Positions 2,397-33,720 of a DNA stretch of 34,327 nucleotides are shown one piece after another. The DNA lies in contig JAFWQT010000182.1 in NCBI GenBank assembly GCA_017508965.1, forward strand, positions 1 through 34,327. Direction: 5' to 3'. Made by a program: the position numbers and the translations under genes. Within the stretch, counting starts at the first letter, position 1. The number at the start of each line of letters is the position of its first letter. This DNA comes from Prevotella sp. (GTDB lineage: Bacteria > Bacteroidota > Bacteroidia > Bacteroidales > Bacteroidaceae). The notes beneath the pieces are model-generated. The model was not told the DNA's origin, searched no databases, and saw only the letters and a list, made by a program, of their open reading frames with translations.

Positions 2397-3395
2397 TTAT
2401 GGAATGCGGCGGAACCACGTGACGCGCAGGAGGATTTCAATCAGCAACGTGATGAAAGCCATCAGGGCAAAAGGCTGATAGGCCTCGTAGTGCCTCGAGA
2501 ACTTCTTCACGTTCATCTTCGTCTTCTCCAGTTTGTCGATATCTTTATAAATCTGCTTCAGCTCGGCCGTGCTCGTGGCGCGGTAGAAATGACCGTCGGC
2601 CATCGAGGCAATCTGCGTTAGGGTCTCGGTATCCACGTCGGCCTTCACGTTTATATACTGCACGCTGCCTCCCACCATCATCGGGTAAGGAGCCACACCC
2701 TTGGTTCCCACGGCAATGGTATAAACCCTGATACCCAGGCTCTTGGCTATCTGGGCAGCGGTGAGCGGCGAGATGTCGCCCATGTTGTTCGAACCGTCGG
2801 TAAGCAGAATCACCACCTTGCTCTTGGTCTTCGACTCCTTCAGTCGGCTCACGGCGTTGGCAAGTCCCATTCCCACGGCCGTTCCGTCTTCAATCAGTCC
2901 ACGTGCGGCAATGTCGGTACGCACGTTCTGCAACAGGTTGAGCAGCGAGGTATGGTCGGTGGTCATAGGGCATTGGGTGAAGGCCTCACCGGCAAAGATG
3001 GTCAGTCCGATATTGTCGTCGGGCCTGCCGCTGATGAATTCCGTGGCCACACTCTTGGCGGCCTCTATGCGGTTGGGCTTCAGGTCCTGTGCCAGCATAC
3101 TGGTGGAGACGTCCATGGCCAGCATGATATCGATACCTTCTGTGGTGCGCTGCCCCCAGCTGCTGTGCGTCTGCGGGCGGGCCAGGGCCAGCACCACCAG
3201 CACGAAGGTGAGCATGCGCAGGAAATCGGGCAGCCAGACAAGCTGCTGGCGCAGGCTCTTCGGCGCATAGCGATAGGCGTTGGTATCGCTCATCTGCATC
3301 GTGGGCTCGCTCTTCTTGCGGTAAAGCAGATACCATATCAGATAAGGTATCAGCAGCAGAAGCAGTAGCAGGTATTCTTTATTTAAAAATTCCAT
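2397..3395 (-). CDS. batA: BatA, VWA-domain membrane protein
   Basis: BatA-type VWA protein (332 aa). An N-terminal membrane helix (about 7-25) and a second (58-73, ending in the family signature ALARPQ) precede the VWA domain. The MIDAS motif AMDVSTSM is intact (Asp95, Ser97, Ser99), with a LLTDGSNNMGD loop and a C-terminal hydrophobic helix around 310-325. It is a paralogue of the downstream batB. The start lies 24 bases after the stop of the upstream BatD-like gene. It is probably a membrane complex partner of BatB, regulated with MoxR as in other MoxR-VWA systems (inference from the family). Confidence 0.9.
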   Translation of the reverse strand: MEFLNKEYLLLLLLLIPYLIWYLLYRKKSEPTMQMSDTNAYRYAPKSLRQQLVWLPDFLRMLTFVLVVLALARPQTHSSWGQRTTEGIDIMLAMDVSTSMLAQDLKPNRIEAAKSVATEFISGRPDDNIGLTIFAGEAFTQCPMTTDHTSLLNLLQNVRTDIAARGLIEDGTAVGMGLANAVSRLKESKTKSKVVILLTDGSNNMGDISPLTAAQIAKSLGIRVYTIAVGTKGVAPYPMMVGGSVQYINVKADVDTETLTQIASMADGHFYRATSTAELKQIYKDIDKLEKTKMNVKKFSRHYEAYQPFALMAFITLLIEILLRVTWFRRIP

Positions 3396-3419
3396 GTTCT
3401 CAATTTATCAGGTCAATGT

Positions 3420-4487
3420 TCAAAACAGCAGGGAAAGCTGCCAGACTATCCAGGCGAACAGCAACACACAGGCTGCGGCCAGAATGCCGATGGCCCACTT
3501 CAGCACCACGCGCGAACGCTGCGAGCGCACTTCCTGCTCGGTCAGCTTGGGCTCCACGCGCTCGGTCTCGGGCTGGTTCTCCTGCTTGGTTTCGTTGATG
3601 AACTGTATAGCGTTCACCAGGTTCATGTCGTTCTCGTTGATGAGCGTCGAATATTTGGCGAACTTCACCAGGTCGGCCGTGGTGAAGAGCTCCCTCAGCT
3701 CGGCTATCATGGTCTTGTCTTCGGCCTGCTGCAGGCGCTCAATAATCTCCGACGAGGTCATCTCCATAGCGTTAAATCCGAACCGCTCCTCGATGTATTT
3801 GCGCAGGGTATCGGTCAGACGGGTATAATATGCCTTCTGGTCTTCCGACGTTGGCATGCGGTCGGCCTTCAGCTGCTCTATCTCGCGCATGGCCCGCTGA
3901 TGGGGCAGCACACGCTTGATGATGCGCACGCGGGCGATGATGGGCTTGTTGTTCTTCAGGCGTGAACGCAGGTAGAACACCACGCAGACCAGAAGTACGA
4001 ACAAAACACTCAGCCAGAACAACGGTCGCCACTCGCTCCACGAGAAGGGATTGTCCTGAACGTTCTTCGGGGGGAAGAACTGTTCGGGATGAAGGGTGTC
4101 CACAGGAACGGTAAGCACCTTCAAGGCGAGGCTCTTGCTCTCGTAGCTCTTGCCGCCGGCCTTCACTTTCATGGCCGGGAGATAATAGAGATTCTCGTCG
4201 AACGAGGTCACAGTATAGACGCGGCTGACGCGTATCATGCCGTTGTCAAGGTCGGTGGTGTCGGCCGTGGTGGCCTCCAGCACTTCCACTCCGGGCGTGA
4301 TATACTCAGAGGGCTTGAACTGCGGGAACTCCAGCGGCTGCCCCTTCTTGAGCGATACGCTCAGCGTGACGTGTGCCTGCTCGCCGATAAGTATGCTGAT
4401 GGAATCGATACTGGATTCCACATTCACTTGAGCGGCAAGCACCAACGAGTTGAATAACAATGCGATATATAATGCAATCCTTTTCAA
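3420..4487 (-). CDS. BatD-like/DUF4381-type membrane protein of the Bat operon
   Basis: Membrane protein (355 aa) found between the DUF58 and batA genes in Bacteroidales Bat operons. A signal peptide (MKRIALYIALLFNSLVLAAQ) is followed by a periplasmic beta-rich domain (about 20-135) resembling a BatD repeat. A membrane helix follows near residues 155-172 (WLSVLFVLLVCVVFYL), then a helical cytoplasmic region similar to DUF4381 (TDTLRKYIEERFGFNAMEMT) and a last membrane helix near the C-terminus (ILAAACVLLFAWIVW). It lies 21 bases after DUF58. The domain name is from memory of the family; no enzymatic motif is visible. Confidence 0.75.
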   Translation of the reverse strand: MKRIALYIALLFNSLVLAAQVNVESSIDSISILIGEQAHVTLSVSLKKGQPLEFPQFKPSEYITPGVEVLEATTADTTDLDNGMIRVSRVYTVTSFDENLYYLPAMKVKAGGKSYESKSLALKVLTVPVDTLHPEQFFPPKNVQDNPFSWSEWRPLFWLSVLFVLLVCVVFYLRSRLKNNKPIIARVRIIKRVLPHQRAMREIEQLKADRMPTSEDQKAYYTRLTDTLRKYIEERFGFNAMEMTSSEIIERLQQAEDKTMIAELRELFTTADLVKFAKYSTLINENDMNLVNAIQFINETKQENQPETERVEPKLTEQEVRSQRSRVVLKWAIGILAAACVLLFAWIVWQLSLLF

Positions 4488-4508
4488 TGCTTTAACTAAT
4501 GGTATGTG

Positions 4509-5393
4509 TTAGATTCTTCCTTTGTTGCGCATCTTGAATAGCATCAGCAGCTGCTTCACGTAGTCTTCGTTGGTGGCCACGCTCACGTGGTCAACGTTGC
4601 TCTTGTTGAAGCAATCCTGCAGCTGGTGCTGACGGTTCATCCAATAAGCGGTATGGGCACGGCGCAGTTTCTTGCTGCTGGTGTCGATAAACATTTCGTG
4701 GCCCGTCTCGGCATCGCGCACCTTCATCAGTCCCACGTCGGGCAGGGTCTTGGCACGCTGGTCGTAGACCTGAATGGCCACCACGTCGTGCTTGCGGTTG
4801 CAGATGGTCAGCGCCTGCGAGAAGTCACGATGCGAATAGAAATCGCTCAGCATGAAGGCCGTGCAATGGCGCTTGGCCACGCTGCTGAGGAACTCTACGG
4901 CCATCGTCACGTCGGTCTTGCGACTCTCGGGATGGAAGTCGAGCATCTCGCGGATGATGTAGAGGATGTGCTTGCGGCCCTTCTTGGGCGGGATGTATTT
5001 CTCAATCTTGTCCGAGAAGAACACCACGCCTATCTTGTCGTTGTTCTGAATGGCGCTGAAGGCAAGGGTTGCCGCTATCTCGGTGACCATGTCTTTCTTC
5101 ATCTGTTGCTGCGTGCCGAACTCCAGCGAACCCGAAACGTCGATCAGCAGCATCACGGTCAGCTCGCGCTCCTCTTCGAAAACCTTGACATAAGGGCGGT
5201 GGAACCTGGCCGTTACATTCCAGTCGATATCGCGGACATCGTCGCCAAACTGGTACTCGCGCACCTCGCTGAAGGCCATTCCACGACCCTTGAAGGCCGA
5301 GTGGTACTGGCCGGCGAAGATATTGGCACTCAGTCTGCGTGTCTTGATTTCTATCTTCCTTACCTTCTTAAGTATTTCCGATGTTTCCATCAT
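4509..5393 (-). CDS. DUF58 domain protein of the MoxR/Bat operon
   Basis: DUF58 family protein (294 aa), the usual partner of MoxR ATPases. The family signature lies at residues 42-75: FSEVREYQFGDDVRDIDWNV, followed by an Arg/Pro-containing strand and an acidic EEER. The C-terminal half is a VWA-like fold with LLIDVSGSL (partial MIDAS DxSxS) and SDFYSHRD. No signal peptide or membrane helix is evident, so it is probably cytoplasmic. Two consecutive ATGs (5391-5393 and 5388-5390) are possible starts. A 7-bp tandem repeat fills the short gap to moxR immediately upstream. Confidence 0.88.
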   Translation of the reverse strand: MMETSEILKKVRKIEIKTRRLSANIFAGQYHSAFKGRGMAFSEVREYQFGDDVRDIDWNVTARFHRPYVKVFEEERELTVMLLIDVSGSLEFGTQQQMKKDMVTEIAATLAFSAIQNNDKIGVVFFSDKIEKYIPPKKGRKHILYIIREMLDFHPESRKTDVTMAVEFLSSVAKRHCTAFMLSDFYSHRDFSQALTICNRKHDVVAIQVYDQRAKTLPDVGLMKVRDAETGHEMFIDTSSKKLRRAHTAYWMNRQHQLQDCFNKSNVDHVSVATNEDYVKQLLMLFKMRNKGRI

Positions 5394-5457: not shown

Positions 5458-6451
5458 AAGGCACTTCCACCTTGTTGATAATCTTCGAAACGATTTCCTC
5501 GCTCGTCACGTTGGTTGCCTCTGCCTCGTACGACAATCCGATGCGATGGCGCAGCACGTCGTGGGCAACGGCACGCACATCCTCGGGCACCACATAGCCG
5601 CGGCGCTTGATGAACGCGTATGCACGGGCTGCCTTGGCCAGGTTGATGGAGGCACGCGGCGAACCGCCGAAGGTGATGAGGTTCTTCAGCTCGGAAAGTC
5701 CGTAGCGGTCGGGATAGCGCGTAGCGAAAACGATGTCGGCGATATATTGCTCAATCTTCTCGTCGAGATATACCTGGCGCACCACTTCGCGGGCGTTGAT
5801 AATCTCCTGAGCCGAGCAGACGGGACGAACGGTGGGCAGAGCACCCATGATGTTCTCGCGGATAATCTGCTTTTCCTCTTCGAGCGTGGGATAGTCGATG
5901 ACCACTTTCAGCATGAAACGGTCCACCTGTGCTTCGGGCAGCGGATAGGTTCCCTCCTGCTCGATGGGGTTCTGGGTGGCCATCACGAGGAACGGACTGG
6001 GCAGCGCAAATGTGTCGCTGCCAATCGTCACCTGATGTTCCTGCATGGCTTCGAGCAGAGCGCTCTGCACCTTGGCCGGGGCACGGTTGATTTCATCGGC
6101 CAGCACAAAGTTGGCAAACACCGGGCCGTTCTTCACCTGGAAGTTTTCGTCCTTCTGCGAATAGATCATCGTACCGATAACGTCGGCAGGCAACAGGTCG
6201 GGTGTGAACTGAATTCTGCTGAAATCGGAATCGATAAGCTGCGCCAACGTCTTGATGGCCAGCGTCTTTGCCAGTCCGGGAACACCTTCCAGGAGGATGT
6301 GACCGTCGCTGAGTAGCGAGATGAGGAGTGAGTCAACGAGATGCTTTTGTCCGACAATCACCTGGTCCATTCCATGAACGAGGTTAGTGACGAACCCACT
6401 TTGCTGTTCGATGCGAACATTTAATTCGCGAATGTCTATAGCTTCTGCCAT
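5456..6451 (-). CDS. MoxR-family AAA+ ATPase, first gene of the Bat operon
   Basis: MoxR-family AAA+ ATPase (331 aa, full length). Walker A is GVPGLAKT (56-63), Walker B is VLADE (116-120) followed by INRAPAKVQSALLEAMQE, and the sensor region contains MATQNPIEQEGTYPLPEAQ. The C-terminal helical lid includes SPRASINLAKAARAYAF. MoxR proteins act as chaperone-like ATPases that mature or remodel VWA-domain partners; DUF58, BatA and BatB downstream fit that role. A promoter with a perfect TAnnTTTG element lies 60 bases upstream, making this the first gene of the operon. Confidence 0.93.
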   Translation of the reverse strand: MAEAIDIRELNVRIEQQSGFVTNLVHGMDQVIVGQKHLVDSLLISLLSDGHILLEGVPGLAKTLAIKTLAQLIDSDFSRIQFTPDLLPADVIGTMIYSQKDENFQVKNGPVFANFVLADEINRAPAKVQSALLEAMQEHQVTIGSDTFALPSPFLVMATQNPIEQEGTYPLPEAQVDRFMLKVVIDYPTLEEEKQIIRENIMGALPTVRPVCSAQEIINAREVVRQVYLDEKIEQYIADIVFATRYPDRYGLSELKNLITFGGSPRASINLAKAARAYAFIKRRGYVVPEDVRAVAHDVLRHRIGLSYEAEATNVTSEEIVSKIINKVEVP

Positions 6452-6829: not shown

Positions 6830-8278
6830 TTAACGCTTCTTCTTCACTTCAAGCTTCGGAATCTTTAGCGTTGAGCCTTCTTTTGCCACGGTAACGCCAT
6901 TGTGAACCATCACGTAGACTTCCATTCCGGGACCCAGATAGGCCTTCGAAACCTTCTCCAGCGTCTGGCCTTTGCGCACCACAACCGTCTGTTGCGTGCC
7001 CACAATGTTATAGGCACCTGTGCGGACGATGTTGCGGGCGTTGTTCAGCGCCTTCGGATTATTGTCTTCGCTGGCGGCTTCCTCAGCCTGCTGCTTGGCA
7101 ACCTCAGCTTCGTAGGCAGCCTTCTTGGCGGCTTCGGCCTCTTCGGCGGCCTTTGCCACGGCTATCGAGTCGGCCTTGGCTTTGGCTTCCTTTTCTGCTT
7201 CGAGCGCAGCCTTTATTTCGGCGGAATCCACTTTCTCAACGGTATCGGGAACCACGGCTGCCGGTTTTTCGGTCTCAGCAGGTGTCTCCTTCGACTTGCT
7301 GCCCATCTGATAACCAGCAAAATACATGAGTGCACCGAACAGGAGCGAGCCGAACAGCCACCACAACCATGCTTTCGAGCTCTTCGGCTCAGCAGGTTCT
7401 TCGGTTTCTTCGGGCTCGCTGGCAGGCATTTCGGCAGGTTCCGGCTCGGGCAGTTTCTCTGCTTCCGGCTGGGTTTCCTTCTCCATCACAGCGGCAATCG
7501 CGGGAGTCTCCTCCCCTACTTTTTCAGTCTGCTGTTCTTCGGCAGGTTCCGTTTCTTCTGCAATGGGTTGCGGCTCGGGTTCCTTCTGCTCAGGCTCAGC
7601 ATCTGCCTTGGGCTGCTCAGGTTCTTCAACGAGTGCCGACCGCACTTCCTCTGCCGCAACAGGAGCAACTTCCTTCACGACGACGGGAATCTCTTCCTGC
7701 GCCGGTGTCTCTTCCGCGGGAGCAGTCACTGTCTCGGTCTCTGCAACGGGTGCAACGGGTTCCTCAGCCGGCAGTTCTTCCTCCAGTTCTTCCTCGGCCT
7801 GTTCTTCTGGAACCGCATCGTCCATCAACTGCTCCAACTCGGGCTGCGGTTCTGTTTCAGCAGGTTCCTGAACAGCCTCTTCAACAATAGTTTCTGCGGC
7901 TGCAGGCTCTACGTTTTCCTCGTCGGCCACGACCACCTCCTCGGGCATGTCGTCGAAAGTCACACCGTCGTTAAGTGCCACGGTATCAAACTGTGCAAAC
8001 GGTTTGTTCACCAATTCCTTCATCACCGCATCGGCCGTGAAGGTAATCTTCGGGCGACCCTCGATGACGATACGTTCGCCTGTGTTCACATTCACACTTT
8101 CACGGTCCTTCACCTCAATCACCTTGAAGGTGCCAAGGCCTTTCACCTTGGCCTGCTTCTCGTAGTGAAGGGCATCGTTCAGCACGTCAACGACGGTGGT
8201 GAGGAAACGCTCGGCCTCCTTTTTCGATATCTTGTGCTTATTGCTCAAGTATAGCGCCAAATCCTGTATCCTAGCCAT
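6830..8278 (-). CDS. Membrane-anchored HU-domain protein with C-terminal LysM
   Basis: Unusual three-part protein (482 aa). Residues 1-95 are an HU/IHF-type DNA-binding domain (KVKGLGTFKVIEVKDRESVN, then NTGERIVIEGRPKITF). Residues about 110-298 are an extremely Glu/Pro/Ala-rich acidic linker. One membrane helix follows (about 303-323, AWLWWLFGSLLFGALMYFAG), then an Ala/Glu/Lys coiled coil (about 354-402) and a LysM-like domain (about 431-475, VVVRKGQTLEKVSKAYLG). There is no signal peptide before the HU domain, so the predicted topology is HU in the cytoplasm and LysM in the periplasm, suited to tethering DNA to peptidoglycan (inference). It overlaps the upstream HU gene by 8 bases and ends at a strong terminator. 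Confidence 0.85.
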   Translation of the reverse strand: MARIQDLALYLSNKHKISKKEAERFLTTVVDVLNDALHYEKQAKVKGLGTFKVIEVKDRESVNVNTGERIVIEGRPKITFTADAVMKELVNKPFAQFDTVALNDGVTFDDMPEEVVVADEENVEPAAAETIVEEAVQEPAETEPQPELEQLMDDAVPEEQAEEELEEELPAEEPVAPVAETETVTAPAEETPAQEEIPVVVKEVAPVAAEEVRSALVEEPEQPKADAEPEQKEPEPQPIAEETEPAEEQQTEKVGEETPAIAAVMEKETQPEAEKLPEPEPAEMPASEPEETEEPAEPKSSKAWLWWLFGSLLFGALMYFAGYQMGSKSKETPAETEKPAAVVPDTVEKVDSAEIKAALEAEKEAKAKADSIAVAKAAEEAEAAKKAAYEAEVAKQQAEEAASEDNNPKALNNARNIVRTGAYNIVGTQQTVVVRKGQTLEKVSKAYLGPGMEVYVMVHNGVTVAKEGSTLKIPKLEVKKKR

Positions 8279-8561
8279 TGCGTTCTCCTTTCTTTAGTTT
8301 TTCCTTGATGGAGGCTACGGGCTTGAAGCTGAGCACGAGCTTTGGCGGAACCAGCATACGCTGGCCCGTGCCCGGATTGACCACCACGCGCTCCAGACGT
8401 TTCTTTACCTCGAAAGTCCCGAAATTGTGCATCACGACATTGTCGCCTTCCTGGAACTTTTCGTTCATGGCATCGGTCATGGTATACACCATCTTCTGCA
8501 CATCGTCCTGCGTATATCCGGTACGCTGTGCCAGTTCCTGTATGAATTGTTTATTGTTCAT
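8271..8561 (-). CDS. HU-family DNA-binding protein
   Basis: Small HU/IHF-type histone-like protein (96 aa, normal length). The helical N-terminus (MNNKQFIQELAQRTGYTQDD) is followed by the beta-arm region with HNFGTFEVKKR and the DNA-inserting NPGTGQ. The C-terminus is basic (IKEKLKKGERNG). It lies 15 bases after rimO and overlaps the HU/LysM gene by 8 bases. The two HU-fold proteins are thus made from one transcript and could heterodimerise (inference). Confidence 0.9.
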   Translation of the reverse strand: MNNKQFIQELAQRTGYTQDDVQKMVYTMTDAMNEKFQEGDNVVMHNFGTFEVKKRLERVVVNPGTGQRMLVPPKLVLSFKPVASIKEKLKKGERNG

Positions 8562-23908: not shown

Positions 23909-25252
23909 TTAACGTATTACACTCAGCACATCCCGCAGCAGCCCATTGAAGTCAATCACATTGCCAGGCTTCGGCGAGTAGCCCAGCACTACCACCACCA
24001 GGTCGTGCGAAGGGAATATGAAGATGTCCTGCCCGTCGTGACCGTCGCAATAGAACATATCCTTCGGCACATCGGGGAACTTGCCGCACCTGTTCAGCCA
24101 GAAGAACGAGCCGTAGCGGCCCTCGCTGGCAGCAGCCGGCTTGCACGTATAGTCCACCCATCCCTCCGGCAGAATCCGCTCGCTGCCCACGCAGCCGTCG
24201 TCTAGGTACAGCTGCCCGAAGCGGGCATAGTCCAAGGCCGTGGCATAGAGATACGACGAGCCCACAGGCGTGCCGCTCATGTCCTGTTCGAATACCGCCC
24301 CTGCGATGCCCAGCCGTGCAAACAGCCTCGAGTACATATAGCGCAGGAACGCCTCGTCCGACGGGAAGCGGCTGCGCAGATAGCGCATCACGATGTTCGT
24401 AGTGCCGCTCGAGTATTGCCAGTGCGTGCGCGGAGCATGCTCCAGCGGCTTCATCAGCGCAAAGAGACCCATGTCGGTTTCGCAATGCAGCATGATGTTC
24501 ACGTCCGACCGGGCCCCGTAGTCCTCGTTCCATTCCAGTCCGCTCTGCATCTGCATCAGGTCGTTCAGCGTGATAGCCTTTCGCCCGTCGGCCTGCCATT
24601 CGGCGATGCCCGTCGGCGCATGAATGTCCAGCAGACTGTCCTTCACCATGATGCCAGCGAGCGCATTCACAAAGCTCTTCGCCATGCTCCAGCTCAGCAA
24701 CTTAGTGTCGCGGCCGATGCCCTTGTCGTAGCATTCAGCCACTACCCCGCCCTTGTGCACCACCACGAAGGCAAACGGATGGCCCCGATAGGCACGCTCC
24801 GCCACGAAAGCCTTCGCTATCGGCGCAAGCCTTTCCGCTACCGCGGAGTCGCCCAGAGGCAGCAGGGTCCCATGTGTAGAATCCTGCCCCGCCAGTCCCT
24901 CGCCTGTCACACCCGTCGGGAAGCGCTGCCCCCTCAGTTCATCTGCCGAGGCCCCGCGCAGCAAAGTCACGCCGTAGCCTTCTCGATATACGGCAGTAGA
25001 TTTGCCCCAGAGGAATCGGCTGGTCACCGTCTTCTTCTCATAGTCCACCCTGTTGCTTGTGTAGCGGATGAACGAAAAGTTCAGGTCAATCGCTTCCACG
25101 TCCTTCGCCTCCCGCCCCGAGACGAACACCGCCGAAGCCAGATTCTTTGCCGCATAGCCCGTGATGATAGGCATCATCCTGTTCAGGTAGATGAATCCGC
25201 CAACGATGGCAATCAGCAATGCGATGGCAACATATCGTAAGACTCTTTTCAT
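23909..25252 (-). CDS. Beta-lactamase-fold serine hydrolase
   Basis: Class C beta-lactamase/DD-peptidase-like protein (447 aa). An N-terminal membrane anchor (VLRYVAIALLIAIVGGFIYL) is followed by a long spacer and the catalytic domain. The SxxK motif is SMAK (in SWSMAKSFVNALAG), the second motif is YSSGTTN (Tyr), and the KTG position is HDGQ, typical of the wider family of esterases and peptidases rather than true lactamases. The ATG at 25250-25252 overlaps the stop of the upstream ATPase gene as ATGA, so I use it instead of the longer frame to 25300. It is probably periplasm-facing; the substrate is unknown. Confidence 0.87.
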   Translation of the reverse strand: MKRVLRYVAIALLIAIVGGFIYLNRMMPIITGYAAKNLASAVFVSGREAKDVEAIDLNFSFIRYTSNRVDYEKKTVTSRFLWGKSTAVYREGYGVTLLRGASADELRGQRFPTGVTGEGLAGQDSTHGTLLPLGDSAVAERLAPIAKAFVAERAYRGHPFAFVVVHKGGVVAECYDKGIGRDTKLLSWSMAKSFVNALAGIMVKDSLLDIHAPTGIAEWQADGRKAITLNDLMQMQSGLEWNEDYGARSDVNIMLHCETDMGLFALMKPLEHAPRTHWQYSSGTTNIVMRYLRSRFPSDEAFLRYMYSRLFARLGIAGAVFEQDMSGTPVGSSYLYATALDYARFGQLYLDDGCVGSERILPEGWVDYTCKPAAASEGRYGSFFWLNRCGKFPDVPKDMFYCDGHDGQDIFIFPSHDLVVVVLGYSPKPGNVIDFNGLLRDVLSVIR

Positions 25253-26409
25253 AGAACTTTTCTGCTCCATAGCCTCTGAAGAAATTGAGTTACAGGCCAA
25301 ACCTCTATTCCATTCAACATTCTTGGCCTGTCTTCCATAGACAGCATGATAAGTTTTGTATTAGGATGCTCTTCGCTGAAGGCTTTCAGTCCTTTTGTAT
25401 CATTCGACACCACATTATTAGACGATTTCACCTCGATCGCCACATCCACATTGCCTGTCATAACATCGCTGATCAAAGCATCCACCTCATATTTATTATC
25501 CAGCGTGCGCCAGTAACTTAAGGCTTTATCCTCGCCAAAAGTATATGATATAAAGGCTCGCAGTTCCTGTATGACAAAATGCTCCAACGCATGACCGTAT
25601 ATGTCCGTTCCTGGCACGAGTGTTCTGCGATGCAGCAGATGGTTGGGAATTGCCACGTCGAAATAGTAGAACTTAGGAGATTGCATGAGCCTGCGCTTCA
25701 CCACCTTGGTGTATGCAGGCAGATAAAAGCCTAACATTGTTTCTTCGAGGATAGCGAAATACTCCTTTACAGTCTTTGCCGACACACCGCAATCCTGGGC
25801 AATATTCGTGTATTTCACTATTTCTGCATTACTCATTGCTGCCACCTGTAAAAAACGGGTGAAAGAATCCAGCTGGCGCACAACCGCTTCCTCTACAATT
25901 TCCTGCTGCAAATAGTCGCCTATATAAGACTGTATGCGCTTGGAAGGATCTGCCACAAGATAATGACGGGGCAACATTCCATTGTTCAACGCGCGCTGAA
26001 GGTCAAAATCAGGTATCTCGGCACTCACCAACGGAAACAACGTAAATCTCAAAGCACGCCCGCCCAACAAGTTTGCACCACTTCGGCGAAGTTTACGAGC
26101 ACTGGAACCGCTGAGTATGAACCGCAATCCCCGATTCTCCATCAGCCAATGTACCTCATCGAGTATTTCTGGCACTTTTTGTACCTCGTCCACCACAACC
26201 AACTCTCCCTCGTCAAGCATCTCACATTCTTCCCTCAGCAAAGCCGGACGCAGTTGAAATGCCATACGGACATCCGTTTTCAACAGGTCGTAGAGACGTG
26301 CTTTAGGGAAAAGAGCCTTTAGCAGCGTACTCTTTCCTGTCTGACGACTACCCCATAAGAACAGGCTGTCGTTCTCTACTTCTCGAAGTTTTAGTATTCT
26401 CTCTAACAT
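25249..26409 (-). CDS. DUF4143-type AAA ATPase with PD-(D/E)XK-like C-terminus
   Basis: ATP-binding protein of the AAA_14/DUF4143 type (386 aa). Walker A is GSRQTGKS (20-27), Walker B is LVVVDEVQKVP (70-80), followed by ILSGSSARKLRRSGANLLGGRA. The C-terminal DUF4143 domain contains KYEVDALI and AIEVKSSN, an archaeo-eukaryotic-nuclease-like D...ExK pattern. The function is unknown; the family is common and mobile in Bacteroidales. The start is the ATG at 26407-26409, because the -7 element at 26428-26435 precludes the longer frame to 26439. Co-transcribed with the serine hydrolase. Confidence 0.88.
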   Translation of the reverse strand: MLERILKLREVENDSLFLWGSRQTGKSTLLKALFPKARLYDLLKTDVRMAFQLRPALLREECEMLDEGELVVVDEVQKVPEILDEVHWLMENRGLRFILSGSSARKLRRSGANLLGGRALRFTLFPLVSAEIPDFDLQRALNNGMLPRHYLVADPSKRIQSYIGDYLQQEIVEEAVVRQLDSFTRFLQVAAMSNAEIVKYTNIAQDCGVSAKTVKEYFAILEETMLGFYLPAYTKVVKRRLMQSPKFYYFDVAIPNHLLHRRTLVPGTDIYGHALEHFVIQELRAFISYTFGEDKALSYWRTLDNKYEVDALISDVMTGNVDVAIEVKSSNNVVSNDTKGLKAFSEEHPNTKLIMLSMEDRPRMLNGIEVWPVTQFLQRLWSRKVL

Positions 26410-26427
26410 ATTGCAACTATTTGGGGG

Positions 26428-26435
26428 CAAAGATA
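26428..26435 (-). promoter_or_regulatory. Promoter -7 element of the DUF4143 ATPase operon
   Basis: TATCTTTG on the minus strand, 18 bases before the ATG; this fixes the downstream ATG as start. Confidence 0.65.
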
Positions 26436-26469
26436 GCAAAAAGTCATCAACTATGCAAGAAAAAACGCT

Positions 26470-26869: not shown

Positions 26870-26877
26870 TATCTTTG
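26870..26877 (+). promoter_or_regulatory. Promoter -7 element of the R-M operon
   Basis: TATCTTTG on the plus strand, 28 bases before the methyltransferase ATG, fits TAnnTTTG. Confidence 0.6.
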
Positions 26878-26905
26878 CGTTAAATTTAATCATTATTATT
26901 CATAA

Positions 26906-28150
26906 ATGAGCAAATATAATGCAATTTCATTATTCTCAGGTGCAATGGGGTTAGACCTTGGAGTGGAAAAAGCTGGAATAGATATTAGACTCTGTATTGA
27001 AATGAACAAGAATGCTGTCAATACTATTCGGCGGAACACAAATATCCCTGTAATTGATAGGGACATAAACAGCATCCCAACACAGGAGATGTTGGATACG
27101 GCTGGACTGAAAGCTGATGATGTGTTTTTAGTCGTGGGCGGCCCGCCCTGTCAGGCCTTCAGCACAGCAGGTGCAAGAAGAGGACTTGACGACTTTAGAG
27201 GCAATGTTATAATTCAATATCTCAGAGTTATCACCGATATAAAGCCCAAATACTTTATTCTTGAGAATGTTAGGGGATTATTATCAGCCAAGCTGAACAA
27301 AGTGCCAAATGAGTATTGTGAATATGAAAATATCAAAGACATTAAAGGAAGTGTAATGTGTTTCCTGACTCAAGAATTCAGGAAGATGGGATATACAATT
27401 AGTTATGCTCTGTTCAATGCTGCAAACTACGGGGTTCCTCAGATAAGGGAAAGAATGATTATCTTTGGTTCAAGTACTGGTAATCGAATCCCTTTGCCAC
27501 AGCCTACCCACAGCCAGAATGCTATCAACGGAACTGCAAGATGGGTTACATTTGGCGATGTCGCTTCAGACTTGGTTAATGCAGACGAGGGAGATTTCAT
27601 ACCATTAAGAAACAAGACAGAGAAATACATGCAATATATAGGTGAAGGACAATACTGGACGTCTTTGCCAAATGATATAGCTAAAGAGGCGATGGGGGGG
27701 GCCTATGATTTACCTGGAGGGAGGACGGGCTTCTATAGACGATTAAGTTTTAAGCGACCTTCTCCTACCTTGGTTACAAGCCCGACCATGCCTGCAACCT
27801 TGTTGTGCCATCCGACAGAGTTACGTCCCTTAAGCATTAAGGAATATGCCAGGATCCAGCAATTCCCAGATAACTGGGAGTTTGATGGCGACCTCAATGA
27901 TATTTATAAGCAAATAGGCAATGCAGTTCCAGTAGGGCTTGGATACATGGCAGCTTCACAAATATTAAAATTTGAGCAGGGAGAATTGAATGGAAATGAA
28001 GACAACCACAATATAGTTCCTTATTCAAGATACAAAGGTACTACAGACAAAGAGTTCCCTCATATCTTTGAATTGACCCAAAAAGAATATAACCGTAAAA
28101 AACGTGCGGAAGAATCAAAAGAATTAAAATTAGCATTTTGTATCGACTGA
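26906..28150 (+). CDS. DNA (cytosine-5-)-methyltransferase
   Basis: C5-cytosine methyltransferase (414 aa), modification half of a type II R-M system. Motif I is LFSGAMGLDLG, motif IV is VVGGPPCQAFSTAG with the catalytic Cys82, motif VI is ENVRGLL, motif VIII is NYGVPQIRERMIIFG, and motifs IX-X include RPSPTLVTSP and IYKQIGNAVPVGLG. The target-recognition region lies at about 200-280. A run of eight G (27694-27701) sits in the frame inside this region. It lies 1 base before the endonuclease gene. The region from here on is AT-richer than the core to the left, suggesting transfer. Confidence 0.93.
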   Translation: MSKYNAISLFSGAMGLDLGVEKAGIDIRLCIEMNKNAVNTIRRNTNIPVIDRDINSIPTQEMLDTAGLKADDVFLVVGGPPCQAFSTAGARRGLDDFRGNVIIQYLRVITDIKPKYFILENVRGLLSAKLNKVPNEYCEYENIKDIKGSVMCFLTQEFRKMGYTISYALFNAANYGVPQIRERMIIFGSSTGNRIPLPQPTHSQNAINGTARWVTFGDVASDLVNADEGDFIPLRNKTEKYMQYIGEGQYWTSLPNDIAKEAMGGAYDLPGGRTGFYRRLSFKRPSPTLVTSPTMPATLLCHPTELRPLSIKEYARIQQFPDNWEFDGDLNDIYKQIGNAVPVGLGYMAASQILKFEQGELNGNEDNHNIVPYSRYKGTTDKEFPHIFELTQKEYNRKKRAEESKELKLAFCID

Positions 28151-28151
28151 C

Positions 28152-29114
28152 ATGGCTGCAACACTTAAGGAATTAATTGTTAAAGGTGGCTGTATCTATA
28201 TTACCGGGAATGCCACAACGAGAAACAAAAATAAATTTGAAACAATCGGTAGTAGATTTTCGACAATTGAAGTCTTTAAATCTACTCCTATCAGTACTTT
28301 CAATTCTTTTACAACAGTTGAAGGGGAACAATGCTTTCCTCCACTGACATCAAAAGAAGAGGATGCGTTAAGAAAATTGCAGAAAACACTGCAACCTACA
28401 TTGTCAATTGAAGAGAATTTTATAGTTATCCTCACAAAAGATTTTATTCAAAAACAAATTTTGGCAATTAACAACATGACATTAGAAGGTTTGAATGCCA
28501 ATCCTTTGTTGTGTAGGGCCTTGAAACTGAACACTCCTGATGAGTTCGTGAAGTTCTATATGTATTCCGCAATATCCAGAAGTATTGTAACATCTATGGG
28601 GTATTTAGTGCAAGACCTATTGTTATATTCTAGCCCAAATGTATATGACGGCAAGAATTATGAAACATCTTATGGAACAAAATGGGATGTTGTCATAGAA
28701 AAACTTGATGGTGTGAGAAGTTACATAGAAGTAAAATCCGGTCCAAACGACATGGATAAAACTCAGATTTTATCATATGACAAAGCTATTAATAAAGTAA
28801 GGAGAAATGGCGAAAATGCTTTTTGGGGCATTACTTATGGAAAAAAAGATGGAGTGTATGTCTCTACCAGCATTTTGGAAACCTATGTAGCAGACTGGCG
28901 CGACAAAACCTTAATTGGTGCTGAATTGTGGGATTATATCAGTGACAATAGCAATTATCACATGATATTGATGAATACGATACAGGCTACTGCAGATGCA
29001 TTTTTGGGTAGCGAAAGTTTAATAGAAGAAATTGACAAAAAAATAGAACTCTTATTGGATGATTTCAGACGAAAGTTTGAGACAATGGAAAATTTCTATA
29101 ATTCTCTATGGTAA
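28152..29114 (+). CDS. Type II restriction endonuclease, PmeII-like
   Basis: Putative restriction endonuclease (320 aa) of the PD-(D/E)XK fold. The active-site pattern is Asp179 (TKWDVVIEK) with Glu193-x-Lys195 in YIEVKSGPNDMDKTQ; the last resembles PmeII-type enzymes (recalled, not searched). The N-terminal half is unassigned and probably contacts DNA. The ATG follows the methyltransferase TGA by one base, so expression is linked. The cut site cannot be read from sequence. Length and layout are normal for a stand-alone orthodox type II enzyme. Confidence 0.8.
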   Translation: MAATLKELIVKGGCIYITGNATTRNKNKFETIGSRFSTIEVFKSTPISTFNSFTTVEGEQCFPPLTSKEEDALRKLQKTLQPTLSIEENFIVILTKDFIQKQILAINNMTLEGLNANPLLCRALKLNTPDEFVKFYMYSAISRSIVTSMGYLVQDLLLYSSPNVYDGKNYETSYGTKWDVVIEKLDGVRSYIEVKSGPNDMDKTQILSYDKAINKVRRNGENAFWGITYGKKDGVYVSTSILETYVADWRDKTLIGAELWDYISDNSNYHMILMNTIQATADAFLGSESLIEEIDKKIELLLDDFRRKFETMENFYNSLW

Positions 29115-29216
29115 GCCAGTATATCACAGCCGTCCATTCGTGGTGTTTTTCGCGCTCTTATAAATAAATGATTTCTCATTACATTTTCAAGCATGTAAAA
29201 GTTTATCATCACAATA

Positions 29217-29408
29217 ATGTCTACTATAGATTGTCATCCTATCAAGGCATATCAGGGTGCTATCAATGTGAATGTGGTAATTGGAACTTCCTTTCAGACT
29301 TCGCTACATCGTCTTCTGATGTACATGGTGGGGACTCAGGCAATAAACAGGAAAATGGATATTGTATTTGAGAATCATAATACTTATGGAAATAAATACT
29401 CGCATTAA
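29217..29408 (+). CDS. Possible small protein before the caspase-like gene
   Basis: A 63-codon frame starting MSTIDCHPIKAYQGAINVNV and ending in ENHNTYGNKYSH, overlapping the next gene by 23 bases. Codon choice is similar to the neighbouring genes and the overlap suggests coupling, but no family is recognised. An overlapping frame from 29168 (Cys/Tyr-rich) looks less like protein. It could also be a chance frame in a 271-base gap. Confidence 0.35.
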   Translation: MSTIDCHPIKAYQGAINVNVVIGTSFQTSLHRLLMYMVGTQAINRKMDIVFENHNTYGNKYSH

Positions 29409-30195
29409 TAAATGCGTTGTTTACATTATCGAGTCTCTACCAGATGGAGATTTGAAAACAGGCAGTAACCTTTATGATAAATTAAGGCAGGAATGGGCCT
29501 ATAATACAGATTATGAACCTAAATACAAGATTGTACATACCAAAAGAGAGCTGAACAAACTACTTCTGGATATTACTGAGTTAGTTAGCTCAAAGGATAA
29601 TCACAACTTCATCATTTTGCATTTTGAAACACATGGTAGTGAAAATGGTATGCATCTCGCCTCCCGAGAAATGGTACCCTGGATGGAATTGTTCTCTATG
29701 ATAAGACCTATAAACATTAACATGAATGATACACTTTTGGTTGTTTTATCCATGTGCGATAGTAAAAGTATTGCATATAATATCGAACCTAGGGAACGCT
29801 CACCTTTCAGGGGTGTTGTCGTCACAGAAAAGCCTTTGACAGCAGGATATCTTGATAGCATCTGGGATGAATTCTACAAAAACGTGATGAGTCACTTCTT
29901 CGAAGATAAAACACCACAGTATTTTTCAGATTTTACTCCTCAACATATTTGGTTCTTGAATCAAGAGTTTATTTTTGACATACATTCAAACTTGGAAGAG
30001 TACCACCCAGAACAATTCGCAGAGATGCAGGATTCCTTTACTCAAGAGTTTTATGAACTGCTTAAATCTCACCCAAATGAAATATTTTTTACGAGCCCCG
30101 AGTGTTATCTACTCTGGAGAGTGAATAAATGGAGAAGAAAAAAGAAACAGCTGCGAGATTATTATTGTTTTAAGGATATTACTGAAAAGGTATAA
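29386..30195 (+). CDS. Caspase/CHAT-like cysteine peptidase
   Basis: Unassigned 269-residue protein with the hallmarks of clan CD (caspase/CHAT) peptidases. A hydrophobic strand leads to the catalytic His-Gly (FIILHFETHGSENG, His83-Gly84); a second strand leads to the nucleophile (LLVVLSMCDSK, Cys124), 41 residues later as in CHAT proteins. After it come RGVVVTEKPLTAGYLDSIWD and EFYKNVM, like the small-subunit strand and helix. The C-terminal 80 residues are helical and basic (VNKWRRKKKQLRD). There is no TPR, signal peptide or membrane helix. I start at the ATG 29386; an upstream TTG (29362) is less likely. It lies 3' of an R-M pair, suggesting an effector role in defence (inference). Confidence 0.7.
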   Translation: MEINTRINKCVVYIIESLPDGDLKTGSNLYDKLRQEWAYNTDYEPKYKIVHTKRELNKLLLDITELVSSKDNHNFIILHFETHGSENGMHLASREMVPWMELFSMIRPININMNDTLLVVLSMCDSKSIAYNIEPRERSPFRGVVVTEKPLTAGYLDSIWDEFYKNVMSHFFEDKTPQYFSDFTPQHIWFLNQEFIFDIHSNLEEYHPEQFAEMQDSFTQEFYELLKSHPNEIFFTSPECYLLWRVNKWRRKKKQLRDYYCFKDITEKV

Positions 30196-30238
30196 ACATG
30201 AGTAAATCTGTAATTTTTCATATTGTAATGTCTGAGTT

Positions 30239-30817
30239 ATGGAATATATAAAAGACGAATATGGCCGTATTTGGAGAAAATATGATACGGCGATTAAGAA
30301 GAACAAAGCATCTGTAATAGATGCTTATAATAATGGTAAGTGCGAGAAAGTTATGAGACTTGAGCTTCCTATTAAAACATGCATTGCAGTTTTGAATGAG
30401 CTATACCAGAGTGGAATCAACGTAAGAAGATTCTATAAAGATTTGGGGCCTGTTTTTGGAGAAAGCTATGTGTTTTCTATTTCTGATCTCCTTAATGAGG
30501 GTGTCCCAAACAAGGTATGCTTTTTTTTCTTTACAGAAAAAGGTGACAAAAAGGAAATCAAATGTTTGTGTCTCGCTTCAATCGTTATCTGCATACTAAG
30601 TAAAGCTTTAGAAGACAGAAGGATAAAGCAAGGATACTATAATGCCGTACTGAAAAAATACAGCAAGTATGACTTTTCTCATCTTTCGCCAGAGAAGAGG
30701 GCTAAAGAAAAAGAAAGGGCAAAGAAAAAGTTGGAGCGAGAACAAGCAAGAAAAGAATGGGAGATGCGTCCAAAAATCATATACACCCCTATGGGTAATG
30801 ATAAAAGGAGAAAATAG
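30239..30817 (+). CDS. Basic protein of unknown function next to the caspase-like gene
   Basis: Unrecognised 192-residue protein. The N-terminus (MEYIKDEYGRIWRKYDTAIK) and middle are mixed alpha/beta, with a short hydrophobic stretch (KCLCLASIVICILSKAL, about 118-134). The C-terminal 45 residues are strongly charged (EKRAKEKERAKKKLEREQAR) and probably a single helix. An 8-T run (30521-30528) encodes four consecutive Phe. It lies 43 bases after the caspase-like gene on the same strand; a 17-codon frame (30198-30251) bridges the two. It could be a partner, regulator or substrate of the peptidase; no evidence decides this. Confidence 0.55.
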   Translation: MEYIKDEYGRIWRKYDTAIKKNKASVIDAYNNGKCEKVMRLELPIKTCIAVLNELYQSGINVRRFYKDLGPVFGESYVFSISDLLNEGVPNKVCFFFFTEKGDKKEIKCLCLASIVICILSKALEDRRIKQGYYNAVLKKYSKYDFSHLSPEKRAKEKERAKKKLEREQARKEWEMRPKIIYTPMGNDKRRK

Positions 30818-31021: not shown

Positions 31022-31300
31022 CTACATCTTGCCTGTGGCAAGTTCTCTGTCAAGATAACCATAGATGTAAACAGGGCTTTGGAAATAGAGACCCGTCGAG
31101 GGATCCGTCAATTTAGCGTATGTCTCAGAGTTATAAACCGAGTCCAGTGCTTCCTGAAGTGACAATCCTCGCTCTTCCATCAGCATAAGTACGAGGTCTC
31201 GCACAGTACATTCGTTCATATAGTCTATTGTACTCATAGGCGCCTCAGCATTTGAATGGCTCGCCATGAAATCCGTGTATGTTCCATGATAGAGTTTCAT
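31022..31300 (-). CDS. DUF3990 start fused to a DUF3791-operon partner protein
   Basis: A 92-residue protein in two unlike parts. The first 12 residues (MKLYHGTYTDFM) match the start of DUF3990 proteins, normally about 150 residues. From about residue 25 (IDYMNECTVRDLVLMLMEER, then EALDSVYNSETYAKLTDPST) it resembles the small third protein of DUF3791-DUF3990 operons (helical, then SPVYIYGYLDRE). The simplest reading is an in-frame deletion that removed nearly all of DUF3990. It overlaps the upstream DUF3791 gene by 4 bases. Such operons behave like toxin-antitoxin modules by context only. Confidence 0.6.
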   Translation of the reverse strand: MKLYHGTYTDFMASHSNAEAPMSTIDYMNECTVRDLVLMLMEERGLSLQEALDSVYNSETYAKLTDPSTGLYFQSPVYIYGYLDRELATGKM

Positions 31301-31521
31301 ACAAGCGCCCCTCCTTGACGTTGGCAGTAACCTGCCATGTTTTGCTCCATGTCTTCAAAGCTTTGTGTATGAGCTACGTTATAGTGCTCATCCAGAAAGT
31401 TGATAGCCTTATAGCGGTTCAGATAGCGATAAGCCTGCGCCGCTGATAGACCGTAGCGGCGAGCAAACTCGCTGATAAAAATAACTATATATTCGGCTTT
31501 ATTGTGAATCTCTTGTGGCAT
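31297..31521 (-). CDS. DUF3791 domain protein
   Basis: Small cytoplasmic protein (74 aa) of DUF3791: KAEYIVIFISEFARRYGLSA followed by AQAYRYLNRYKAINFLDEHY and NVAHTQSFEDM. These proteins head short operons with DUF3990 and are suspected antitoxin-like partners; the function is unproven. A minus-strand TAnnTTTG promoter lies about 55 bases upstream. It overlaps the next gene by 4 bases. Confidence 0.75.
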   Translation of the reverse strand: MPQEIHNKAEYIVIFISEFARRYGLSAAQAYRYLNRYKAINFLDEHYNVAHTQSFEDMEQNMAGYCQRQGGALV

Positions 31522-31954: not shown

Positions 31955-32773
31955 TTATTTCAACAATTTCCTGCCGCTATTGTTTTCCAAAACCTGCATC
32001 TGCTGGATGGCTATCTGATTGAGTTTAACGAGTCGCTCGCTCTGTGGCATACCGTCGTTGATGAGTACGGCATTGATATTCTCCATGTTCGAGAGACATA
32101 TGAGTTCGTTAATTGTGGCATAGTCACGAATATTCCCTTTCTTGTCTGGATTAGCATCGCGCCATTGCTTGGCGGTCATTCCAAACATGGCAATGTTGAG
32201 TACATCAGCTTCATCAGCATACTTCATGGCAGCCTGTTCGCGGGTGACCTCAGTGGGAATAAGGTGGCTCTTGATGGCATCGGTGTGAATGCGGTAGTTG
32301 ATTTTTGATAACTCGCGTTTTGCTGACCATGCAAGCTGCTCTTGCTCCTTGGCTTTCAGGCGTTGGAACTCCATCACAAGATAGAGTTCAAACTCCACAG
32401 ACACCCAATTGGCAAACTTGAAGGCTATATCGCGTTGAGCATACGTGCCTCCTCCAGCTCCGTTTTTCGTAAGGATGCCTATTGCAGCTGTGAGTTCAAT
32501 CCATTTGGTTGGGCTCATAGTAAAAGCGTTACTTCCTGCCTCAGTCAAAAGGGGGTCGAATTCGACCCCTTTAAAGTTGGGATTGTGTAATCTCTCCCAA
32601 AGTCCCAAATACTCCAAGGTGTTCTTCTGACGCATCCAGTTCTTTACCACGTCTTTCGGTTCGTTCTCATTCTTCTGCCGGGCTATATCGGTAATGCAGA
32701 TGTAGTCGATGCCGTTGACGGTCATCGTTCTGATGTTCACATCCTTTACCGTAATTACACTCTTTTTTGCCAT
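31955..32773 (-). CDS. KilA-N domain protein
   Basis: KilA-N domain protein (272 aa), a phage-type DNA-binding family. The domain spans about residues 15-125: DYICITDIARQKNENEPKDV, VVKNWMRQKNTLEYLGLWER, then GAGGGTYAQRDIAFKFANWV and FELYLVMEFQRLK. The C-terminal part is helical with TREQAAMKYADEADVLNIAM. Stand-alone KilA-N proteins of this size are frequent on Bacteroidales accessory islands, often next to broken phage or R-M genes, as here. The specific role is unknown. Confidence 0.87.
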   Translation of the reverse strand: MAKKSVITVKDVNIRTMTVNGIDYICITDIARQKNENEPKDVVKNWMRQKNTLEYLGLWERLHNPNFKGVEFDPLLTEAGSNAFTMSPTKWIELTAAIGILTKNGAGGGTYAQRDIAFKFANWVSVEFELYLVMEFQRLKAKEQEQLAWSAKRELSKINYRIHTDAIKSHLIPTEVTREQAAMKYADEADVLNIAMFGMTAKQWRDANPDKKGNIRDYATINELICLSNMENINAVLINDGMPQSERLVKLNQIAIQQMQVLENNSGRKLLK

Positions 32774-32776
32774 AGT

Positions 32777-33117
32777 TTTTGATTTGGATAGTTCCTTATT
32801 ATTATCTTTCTCAAATAGTCATTCTCAATATCAGTCAAAGACTCTATTAAAAGTTTTAAGTTATTTCTAACTGTACGTTAGTATGTAGTCAAATATGGGT
32901 TAATGTCATTAATGACAACCTTAGTAATATTTGAAAACTTCTGAAGCATGTGAAACAGCATGGCTCCGCCACCTACGAACGGCTCTATGTAGGTGAATTC
33001 TCGTTCATCGAGACCATTAGGCAGCAGGGCGTCAAGCTGCGGTAGCAACTGTCCTTTACCCCCAGCCCATTTCAGAAAAGGTTTCGCTTTTGTAGTTATT
33101 GGTCGAATATCTGTCAT
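32777..33117 (-). pseudogene. Dam-type adenine methyltransferase, interrupted and truncated
   Basis: N-terminal part of a D12-class DNA adenine-N6 methyltransferase. It has KPFLKWAGGKGQLLPQL and the SAM-binding IEPFVGGGAMLFHML, then VVINDINPYLTTY and a TAA at 32878-32880. The same frame continues after the stop with RTVRNNLKLLIESLTDIEND, as intact Dam enzymes do, until it meets the KilA-N start. The catalytic DPPY region is absent. It is a pseudogene with an internal stop and a lost C-terminal half. The start is taken as the ATG 33115-33117, behind a -7 element at 33140-33147. Confidence 0.85.
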
Positions 33118-33139
33118 TATCTGTGGAATTATTACCCTG

Positions 33140-33147
33140 CAAAAATA
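33140..33147 (-). promoter_or_regulatory. Promoter -7 element of the Dam remnant
   Basis: TATTTTTG on the minus strand, 22 bases before the chosen Met. It lies within any longer frame, so the upstream start at 33150 is unlikely. Confidence 0.5.
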
Positions 33148-33306
33148 CAAAAACTTTGTGAAAAATATTCATTCTGATAATAAAAAATGAGTTTTACATT
33201 ATTTTTCTTGGTCTACAAGAGATCTAAACTCTCGAAAATCTAATTAACGGGATCAAAATGATTTGGCCGTTTCAGGCAGTTCTCCGACCTTTGCGGTCAC
33301 AATTAT

Positions 33307-33486
33307 ATGAACAAAAGCCGGATGATGACACAGCGCGAACGAATAGCCTGGTATGTGTTGAGGGGGGAACTCATTGACAGCAAGTCGCTTTATGCTGCTT
33401 TCAGAGCACTCGGGGGCAACAGGAATGTCAGAGGAAGGGCTGCAAGGGCGGAATGGGTCGTAGTTCCTCATACCTTATTTTGTTAA
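33307..33486 (+). CDS. Possible small basic protein, or remnant
   Basis: A 59-codon plus-strand frame (MNKSRMMTQRERIAWYVLRG, then ELIDSKSLYAAFRALGGNRN and a basic end). It is open upstream to 33262, giving FGRFRQFSDLCGHNY before the Met, so it may be the tail of something longer. It looks more protein-like than the opposing minus-strand frame 33253-33471 (Pro/Ser/Cys-rich). No family is recognised. The rest of 33148-33474 shows nothing else. Confidence 0.3.
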   Translation: MNKSRMMTQRERIAWYVLRGELIDSKSLYAAFRALGGNRNVRGRAARAEWVVVPHTLFC

Positions 33487-33720
33487 TTCGTTAAACAGAG
33501 CCATTCCCTTCACCGTCAGCAGATATTTCTGGCGTGGGTGACGAGGGGAATCAGGATAGAGCATACGGACATAGCCTTCCTGTATAGCAGGGTTGAGATA
33601 ATGTTGCAAGAAGTTCTCACGATCTTTTAGCCCTACTGCGCTAATCATATCTTTTACCGACAACTCATTTTCACCTATAATCTGTATGAGTTGTATAATA
33701 TTCTGGTTATTGGGGCGCAA
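33475..33720 (-). CDS. C-terminal winged-helix part of a split Fic/AlbA-type protein
   Basis: An 81-codon frame with no ATG at its start (first codon TTG), ending the gene that enters from 33925. The sequence, NIIQLIQIIGENELSVKDMI then AVGLKDRENFLQHYLNPAIQ and EGYVRMLYPDSPRHPRQKYL, matches the C-terminal winged-helix seen in Fic and AlbA_2-type (schlafen-like) proteins (recalled). It starts inside the last bases of an 11-bp repeat array, in a different frame from the upstream part. Alone it is likely not translated from its own start. Confidence 0.55.
   Translation of the reverse strand: MRPNNQNIIQLIQIIGENELSVKDMISAVGLKDRENFLQHYLNPAIQEGYVRMLYPDSPRHPRQKYLLTVKGMALFNELTK

Follow-up and report, generated by a model that had tools for sequence, protein, structure and literature searches.

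We analysed a 34,327-nucleotide stretch of Prevotella sp. DNA (assembly GCA_017508965.1, contig JAFWQT010000182.1; contig 4 of a 188-contig assembly with an estimated completeness of 71%), hereafter called the window, in which a type II restriction–modification (R-M) pair is followed on the plus strand by a gene for a 269-aa caspase/CHAT-like protein. The explanation that we prefer, and to which we give a slightly better than even chance, is that this protein is a clan CD-type peptidase from an unnamed, rare and horizontally moving family that acts as an add-on effector for antiviral systems. We read the family as an accessory effector because its neighbours include unrelated sensors, because it lies downstream of them and because its partners change.

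The 269-aa protein and its relatives

The original prediction described four plus-strand genes in a row behind one TAnnTTTG element and read the third as a caspase/CHAT-like peptidase with a His83-Gly and Cys124 dyad. All four open reading frames (ORFs) are present, with the starts and stops proposed for them, in both the ORF list and the sequence, and the two dyad motifs, HFETH83G84 and LSMC124, are as described; an alternative TTG start at 29362 would lengthen the peptidase to 277 aa. Relatives were gathered stepwise and 25 members, with 17–38% identity with the window protein, were aligned. His83, Gly84, Asn110, Leu117 and Cys124 are invariant in all 25, and Trp99, Pro140, Phe163 and Tyr164 are nearly so. 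As it is invariant across so many members at such low identity, the dyad is more than a chance occurrence.

We also examined an AlphaFold2 model of 29386–30195, built from eight sequences, with a mean predicted local distance difference test (pLDDT) score of 60 and a predicted template modelling score of 0.63. Over residues 11–110 the means of ten-residue blocks are 76–97, and the C-terminal part lies below 50 for most of its length. The predicted elements are a strand at 10–17, a helix at 25–37, a strand at 43–49, a helix at 53–67, a strand at 75–85 that holds His83, short strands at 88–90 and 96–98, a helix at 99–112, a strand at 118–122 before Cys124 and a helix at 126–132, and caspase and CHAT cores have this same order of elements. 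In clan CD enzymes, successive hydrophobic strands end in His-Gly and in Cys, and in the model His83-Gly84 and Cys124 are found at strands 75–85 and 118–122. The conserved dyad and the predicted order of elements support the peptidase assignment, and the protein is likely to belong to clan CD (caspase/CHAT type).

Profile matches of the window protein remain below the Pfam cut-offs, with E 0.0017 for Peptidase_C13 (PF01650; 18.3 bits against a cut-off of 22.8), 0.006 for Peptidase_C14 (PF00656; 16.7 bits against 21.4) and 0.3 for CHAT (PF12770; 10.9 bits against a gathering score of 24). The C13 profile matches nine of 22 members over the His-Cys region, below threshold at E values up to 0.1, and the best CHAT E-value among these 22 is 0.0071.

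The family is rare. A single-sequence search matched 5 of 201 genomes of the host's taxonomic family (two weakly). Further searches matched 5 of 393 of the order (one match later dropped) and 9 of 395 of the phylum, together with 4 of 98 and 3 of 165 genomes of two other classes, and a profile search matched 6 of 291 genomes of the host's taxonomic family (one later dropped); the family, order and phylum counts include the window's own genome, the other-class counts include the centre genome and the samples overlap. We dropped L004 and L005 (E 0.004–0.009), L012/L018 (E 9.6e-6; a CHAT-like protein of another kind, next to a large repeat protein) and L088 (E 2.4e-14; His-Ser in place of His-Gly), the last being a divergent peptidase-like domain at 3303–5294 (minus strand) that by eye forms a fusion with a protein kinase domain. 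Near-duplicates of L029 (L003/L016, L028 and L030), L024 (L002/L017) and L007 (L021) were also dropped, as were 15 further Klebsiella records before counting. L051 is short and was kept in the alignment of 25 and omitted from the second tree; L024 is truncated by a contig end; and the L087 row begins at 5678, inside its ORF, because an unrelated, basic stretch makes up the first 35 residues. A phage origin was rejected, as no relative was found in 50,697 phage records (two queries) or in viral contigs (two queries). On Klebsiella plasmids, a divergent member (L019, 4857–5660) lies near a repB-family gene, and this branch comprises 16 records, mostly of approx. 110 kb, all typed as non-mobilizable.

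Genes beside the peptidase

The 25 members were sorted by hand from ORF maps and family scans of selected neighbours. Seven of the 25 loci have a named system just ahead of the peptidase and on its strand, and each time the peptidase follows the named genes (Table 1). These are the window, a DpnII R-M system, Hachiman, Lamassu, a type III Res gene, pAgo and DISARM; in the Hachiman locus, HamB and the peptidase overlap by 1 bp if the first ATG is used, and in the DISARM locus the peptidase starts 786 bp past the end of drmB. In a further six loci a gene for a nuclease, a methyltransferase, CBASS or a membrane conflict protein is nearby in some other position, among them a Rhizobium plasmid member (L007) whose two-transmembrane neighbour is a possible membrane target or pore partner. 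In two more the peptidase forms a tight run behind unnamed genes, with gaps of 9 bp (L026) and 55 bp (L029). The genes ahead of it are a 1123-aa gene in L026 (388–3759) and a 270-aa membrane-type protein plus a 965-aa leucine-rich-repeat protein in L029 (3227–6934), all without a clear effector family, and near-identical peptidase and AlbA_2 genes follow in both loci; the large upstream genes are candidate new sensors.

The partners differ even between sister peptidases. The window groups with L086 and L024 (support 99/98), and the neighbours within this clade are two different type II R-M systems and one HNH gene. The sisters L046 (type III Res) and L047 (DISARM) have support of 100/99, and L014 (PDDEXK_9) and L048 (pAgo) 95/91, with different partners in each pair; L025 (Lamassu) groups with L026 and L029 with support of 98/95 in the first tree and 86/76 in the second. 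At the DNA level, where the short contigs of metagenome-assembled genomes (MAGs) make chimeric assembly possible, L026 and L029 have 90.7% identity over 1360 bp running exactly from the peptidase start codon to the L026 contig end, with no DNA match upstream of that codon beyond approx. 20 bases. L046 and L047 have 76.6% identity over 1337 bp, a segment that takes in the peptidase and the res nuclease end; past it, L047 continues into DISARM genes, as though the peptidase had been kept while one system replaced another around it. In L047 this remaining piece of a type III res gene, its nuclease end (7817–8317, minus strand), lies beside the peptidase and next to the DISARM genes.

We also compared the neighbourhoods with control stretches using PADLOC, taking ORFs by longest-frame rules (130–1300 aa, centres within 4.5 kb of the peptidase). 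At E 1e-15, 127 neighbour ORFs from 23 loci matched 130 families and 126 control ORFs from 17 stretches matched 29, which we give as a ratio and without a significance test since the families are redundant and the matches were not traced to ORFs. The test set is these 23 loci, L086 and L087 having been found later. The control stretches (15 from eight genomes and two from plasmids) were chosen at round coordinates, ahead of any reading of their genes; all come from carriers of the family, and the test loci were drawn from more sources. Among the best 25 of the 29 control families most are ATPase, helicase or regulator models, and one control stretch holds an annotated SIR2-family gene; strong test-set matches among the best 25 of 130 families include RmrA, RmrT and PDC-S22 (not assigned to ORFs).

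Table 1 Features of the window and gene order at loci of the peptidase family (peptidase assignments are predicted; values after family names are E-values)
Locus	Feature or gene order	Position	Strand	Basis	Gap or distance
Window	TAnnTTTG motif TATCTTTG upstream of methyltransferase	26870..26877	+	motif scan	
Window	C5-cytosine DNA methyltransferase, type II R-M, 414 aa	26906..28150	+	Pfam DNA_methylase PF00145 6.3e-60; PADLOC MTase_II 5.8e-97	
Window	Type II restriction endonuclease, EcoO109I-like, 320 aa	28152..29114	+	Pfam RE_EcoO109I PF14511 3e-14	
Window	63-aa ORF overlapping peptidase start, uncertain gene	29217..29408	+	ORF list; own-frame codon score highest, but short	
Window	Caspase/CHAT-like cysteine peptidase, 269 aa, dyad His83 + Cys124, acidic pI 5.5	29386..30195	+	invariant residues; AlphaFold2 element order; sub-threshold Pfam	
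Window	Codons of His83-Gly84	29632..29637	+	sequence; invariant 25/25	
Window	Codon of Cys124	29755..29757	+	sequence; invariant 25/25	
Window	192-aa basic orphan protein, pI 9.6	30239..30817	+	frame-favouring codon score; no true relative	
Window	Type II R-M, then peptidase				gap 271 bp
L086	D12 methyltransferase, DpnII, 90 aa, 174 aa, N4/N6 methyltransferase, then peptidase			DpnII 1.3e-100	gap 16 bp
L087	AbiEi-type gene, short ORF, HamA, HamB, then peptidase (Hachiman)			HamA PADLOC 1.6e-86; HamB E 0	
L025	LmuA, MC3, DUF3732 ATPase, then peptidase (Lamassu)			5.2e-36; 5.6e-28; 8.1e-47	gap 6 bp
L046	Type III Res, then peptidase			E 0, matched from model position 216 on	gap 99 bp
L048	pAgo, NOV_C protein, unnamed 343-aa protein, then peptidase			pAgo 6.1e-253; NOV_C 2.6e-18	gap 49 bp
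L047	DrmA, DrmB, Res nuclease-end fragment, then peptidase (DISARM)			DrmA 3.8e-201; DrmB 2.4e-68	
L014	PDDEXK_9				38 bp downstream
L024	Divergent HNH gene; XRE-like gene			XRE-like by eye	
L044	NOV_C; type II endonuclease/methyltransferase genes				NOV_C ~1 kb downstream; others 2.5-4.3 kb away
L050	N4/N6 methyltransferase				362 bp downstream
L020	CBASS cyclase + phospholipase genes				~2-4.5 kb upstream
L007	TRADD-N-associated two-transmembrane domain protein	5483..6412		7e-14	71 bp downstream

The first two genes of the window's row are, from their family matches (53.7 bits against a cut-off of 22.5 for RE_EcoO109I) and adjacency, an ordinary type II R-M pair, and the 1-base gap between them is confirmed in the sequence. 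The gap from endonuclease to peptidase, absent from the original prediction, is 271 bp, the longest in the four-gene row, and contains two short ORFs (29168–29371 and 29217–29408) with no significant match among the loci collected at that stage. The TAnnTTTG element ahead of the row was found as TATCTTTG at 26870, and none lies between 29114 and 29386; this absence is weak evidence for one transcript, because the motif occurs in the window more often than expected by chance (29 found against 16.4 expected, with 1 of 100 shuffles reaching as many).

Linkage of the peptidase to R-M, as originally proposed, is real, recurring with a different type II system (DpnII, L086) in the same peptidase clade and with the type III Res gene of L046, but it is part of a wider association with defence systems. 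The proposed four-gene composite, with the 192-aa protein as regulator or substrate, fared less well. Beyond the window, just two of 151 genomes matched the endonuclease, both weakly; both relatives (L078 and L079) sit in R-M loci without the peptidase (genes judged by eye), which is why we reject a single four-gene system, and their genomes are not among the five matched in the first peptidase search. By eye, no other peptidase locus carries the window's R-M genes, and the family also stands behind Hachiman, Lamassu, DISARM and pAgo genes. The 192-aa ORF is probably coding, judging from its codon score. Two of 301 genomes of the host's taxonomic family matched its product, namely the window's own and one with 34 residues antisense to a transporter ORF, which was also the only match in the loci collected at that stage, and there was none in plasmids or in viral contigs. 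The neighbourhood survey returned peptidase relatives with R-M and other defence genes, but, in the loci collected at that stage, with no true relative of the 192-aa gene; for lack of such a relative we rejected it as a conserved partner, and it could be either a passenger or a partner specific to this lineage.

Several other genes of the window lie on the minus strand. One is a broken D12 adenine methyltransferase, of which an N-terminal piece is present (32812–33150); it is 65–68% identical with the methyltransferase of the L086 DpnII system and may be what is left of a second R-M system in this island. A gene at 25249–26439, ATPase-like by eye, matches the PADLOC candidate defence family PDC-S01 (3.2e-53), and a DUF3791 gene (2.1e-22) stands in tandem with a 92-aa gene at 31022–31521, an arrangement that we take to resemble a small toxin–antitoxin-type pair. 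In addition, a KilA-N protein (31955–32773; 2.4e-17) and an ORF with a Fic-like C-terminal domain (33475–33720; 6.7e-24) are possible signs of a mobile island.

An accessory effector and its alternatives

The peptidase is placed behind genes whose products recognise or cut foreign DNA, and as an accessory effector we propose that it would work as follows. The host system, here the type II R-M pair, would act on incoming phage DNA and, if that action persisted or failed, the engaged state of the partner would activate the peptidase, whose variable C-terminal part may mediate this. The active peptidase would then cleave a partner protein and release an activity, or would cleave cell proteins and halt growth before phage release. 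Type II restriction is usually viewed as acting alone. A bolder version, which we hold tentatively and rate somewhat below even, makes this stand-alone caspase-like family a general plug-in effector for restriction, Hachiman, Lamassu, pAgo and DISARM sensors, through which DNA cutters would gain a protease-driven suicide arm; one executioner would then be wired to many sensors, and the shared-protease principle would extend to restriction.

Several observations weigh against an accessory effector. The window protein has no above-cut-off match in Pfam, PADLOC or NCBIfam, the family profile likewise has no family or PDB sequence match above cut-off, and PDB sequence searches with the protein and the profile gave nothing better than E 0.2; in the model, the strand before Cys124 is only moderately confident (pLDDT 65–67 over residues 111–130). 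The gene adjoining the peptidase is a fragment in L047 and unnamed in L048, the L026/L029 junction rests on MAG contigs and could be chimeric, and the PADLOC family counts are redundant, as one gene can match dozens of models. Furthermore, by eye no defence gene was recognised in ten of the 25 loci (L006, L013, L015, L019, L027, L031, L045, L049, L051 and L059), where single family scans covered one neighbour in L019 and one in L059 and some stretches end at contig ends, so that the peptidase may act alone. Borvo, a single-gene system, is a precedent of this kind. It is listed as a CHAT defence (PMC10952713), and a self-contained defence with its own sensor and effector, merely collecting in defence islands beside incidental R-M neighbours, would fit these ten loci, the change of partners between sisters and the 271-bp gap in the window, itself a point against the accessory effector. 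We nevertheless consider it unlikely, if worth keeping in mind, given the very short gaps in unrelated operons (the Hachiman overlap, 6 bp in Lamassu, 16 bp in the DpnII R-M locus and 49 bp in the pAgo run), the downstream position in seven of seven linked loci and a window gap without TAnnTTTG.

An arrangement like that of the canu loci, in which the peptidase would cut and thereby activate its operon's nuclease, here the EcoO109I-like enzyme, appears improbable. Family matches do identify nuclease genes or domains, including the EcoO109I-like enzyme, DpnII, the Res endonuclease domain, NOV_C beside pAgo, the res fragment of L047, PDDEXK_9 38 bp downstream in L014 and NOV_C approx. 1 kb downstream in L044, to which may be added HamA and LmuA of the linked systems, which we take to be nucleases. 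Activation of a pro-nuclease by a caspase has been demonstrated (PMC12799240). The partner nucleases here are, however, unrelated, so that a single cleavage specificity is hard to see, and no metallo-β-lactamase (MBL)-fold family appeared in five Pfam scans of ten proteins each, covering part of the neighbours. DpnII, moreover, is active without a protease. Proteolytic control is known for type I restriction enzymes and, together with the operon position, would suit a peptidase that trims or destroys components of R-M or another system and is not an effector against the infected cell; the occurrence of the family with systems that share no component, and the two related R-M loci (L078 and L079) that do without it, make this very improbable. 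That the protein is not an active peptidase, or is unrelated to defence, would accord with the lack of a family match above any curated cut-off, but is barely credible beside a dyad invariant in 25 of 25 members, the order of elements and the defence neighbourhoods.

Relation to known systems

The closest parallels to an accessory effector are the trypsin–nuclease pairs acquired by Hachiman, AVAST, Lamassu and DRT and the caspase–nuclease canu loci described in PMC12799240. As in those pairs, a protease gene has repeatedly been gained by unrelated antiviral systems, Hachiman and Lamassu included, and the canu protease is also caspase-related. As that paper describes them, however, HamA, Avs1a or LmuA carries the trypsin as a fusion, an MBL-fold pro-nuclease is the other member of the pair, and the caspases of canu have Ig-like domains, whereas the present family is a short stand-alone peptidase; its Pfam matches include no Ig family, and its C-terminal part is mostly of low model confidence. 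It has R-M, DISARM and pAgo genes as neighbours, with no MBL nuclease among those scanned, and the window's downstream 192-aa orphan has no MBL match. The words ‘restriction’, ‘DISARM’ and ‘CHAT’ do not occur in the main text of PMC12799240. We read the family as separate from the Hachiman, AVAST and canu protease–nuclease pairs, and as lacking their MBL pro-nuclease.

CHAT proteases (PF12770), listed for Borvo and for type III-E CRISPR in PMC10952713 and including the Craspase TPR-CHAT protein, share the clan CD-type dyad and a role in phage defence; the window protein differs in scoring below the CHAT cut-off and having no PADLOC match, and no Cas gene was seen beside the peptidase. With Peptidase_C13 and C14 (legumain and caspase) there are sub-threshold profile matches, the window protein being below both Pfam cut-offs. 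Other caspase, CARD-like and TRADD-N conflict systems are the subject of PMC7159879, PMC11090510 and PMC8195603, and the open-access literature matches listed contained, in their titles and abstract openings, nothing on this peptidase family or on an R-M–peptidase operon. Compared with type II R-M systems that have EcoO109I-like or DpnII endonucleases, the difference here is an added peptidase behind two unrelated systems (the window and L086). An R-M-linked back-up effector has a precedent in PrrC, an anticodon nuclease beside a type I system, which resembles the arrangement proposed here as a second-line toxin beside restriction and differs from it in being an anticodon nuclease rather than a protease.

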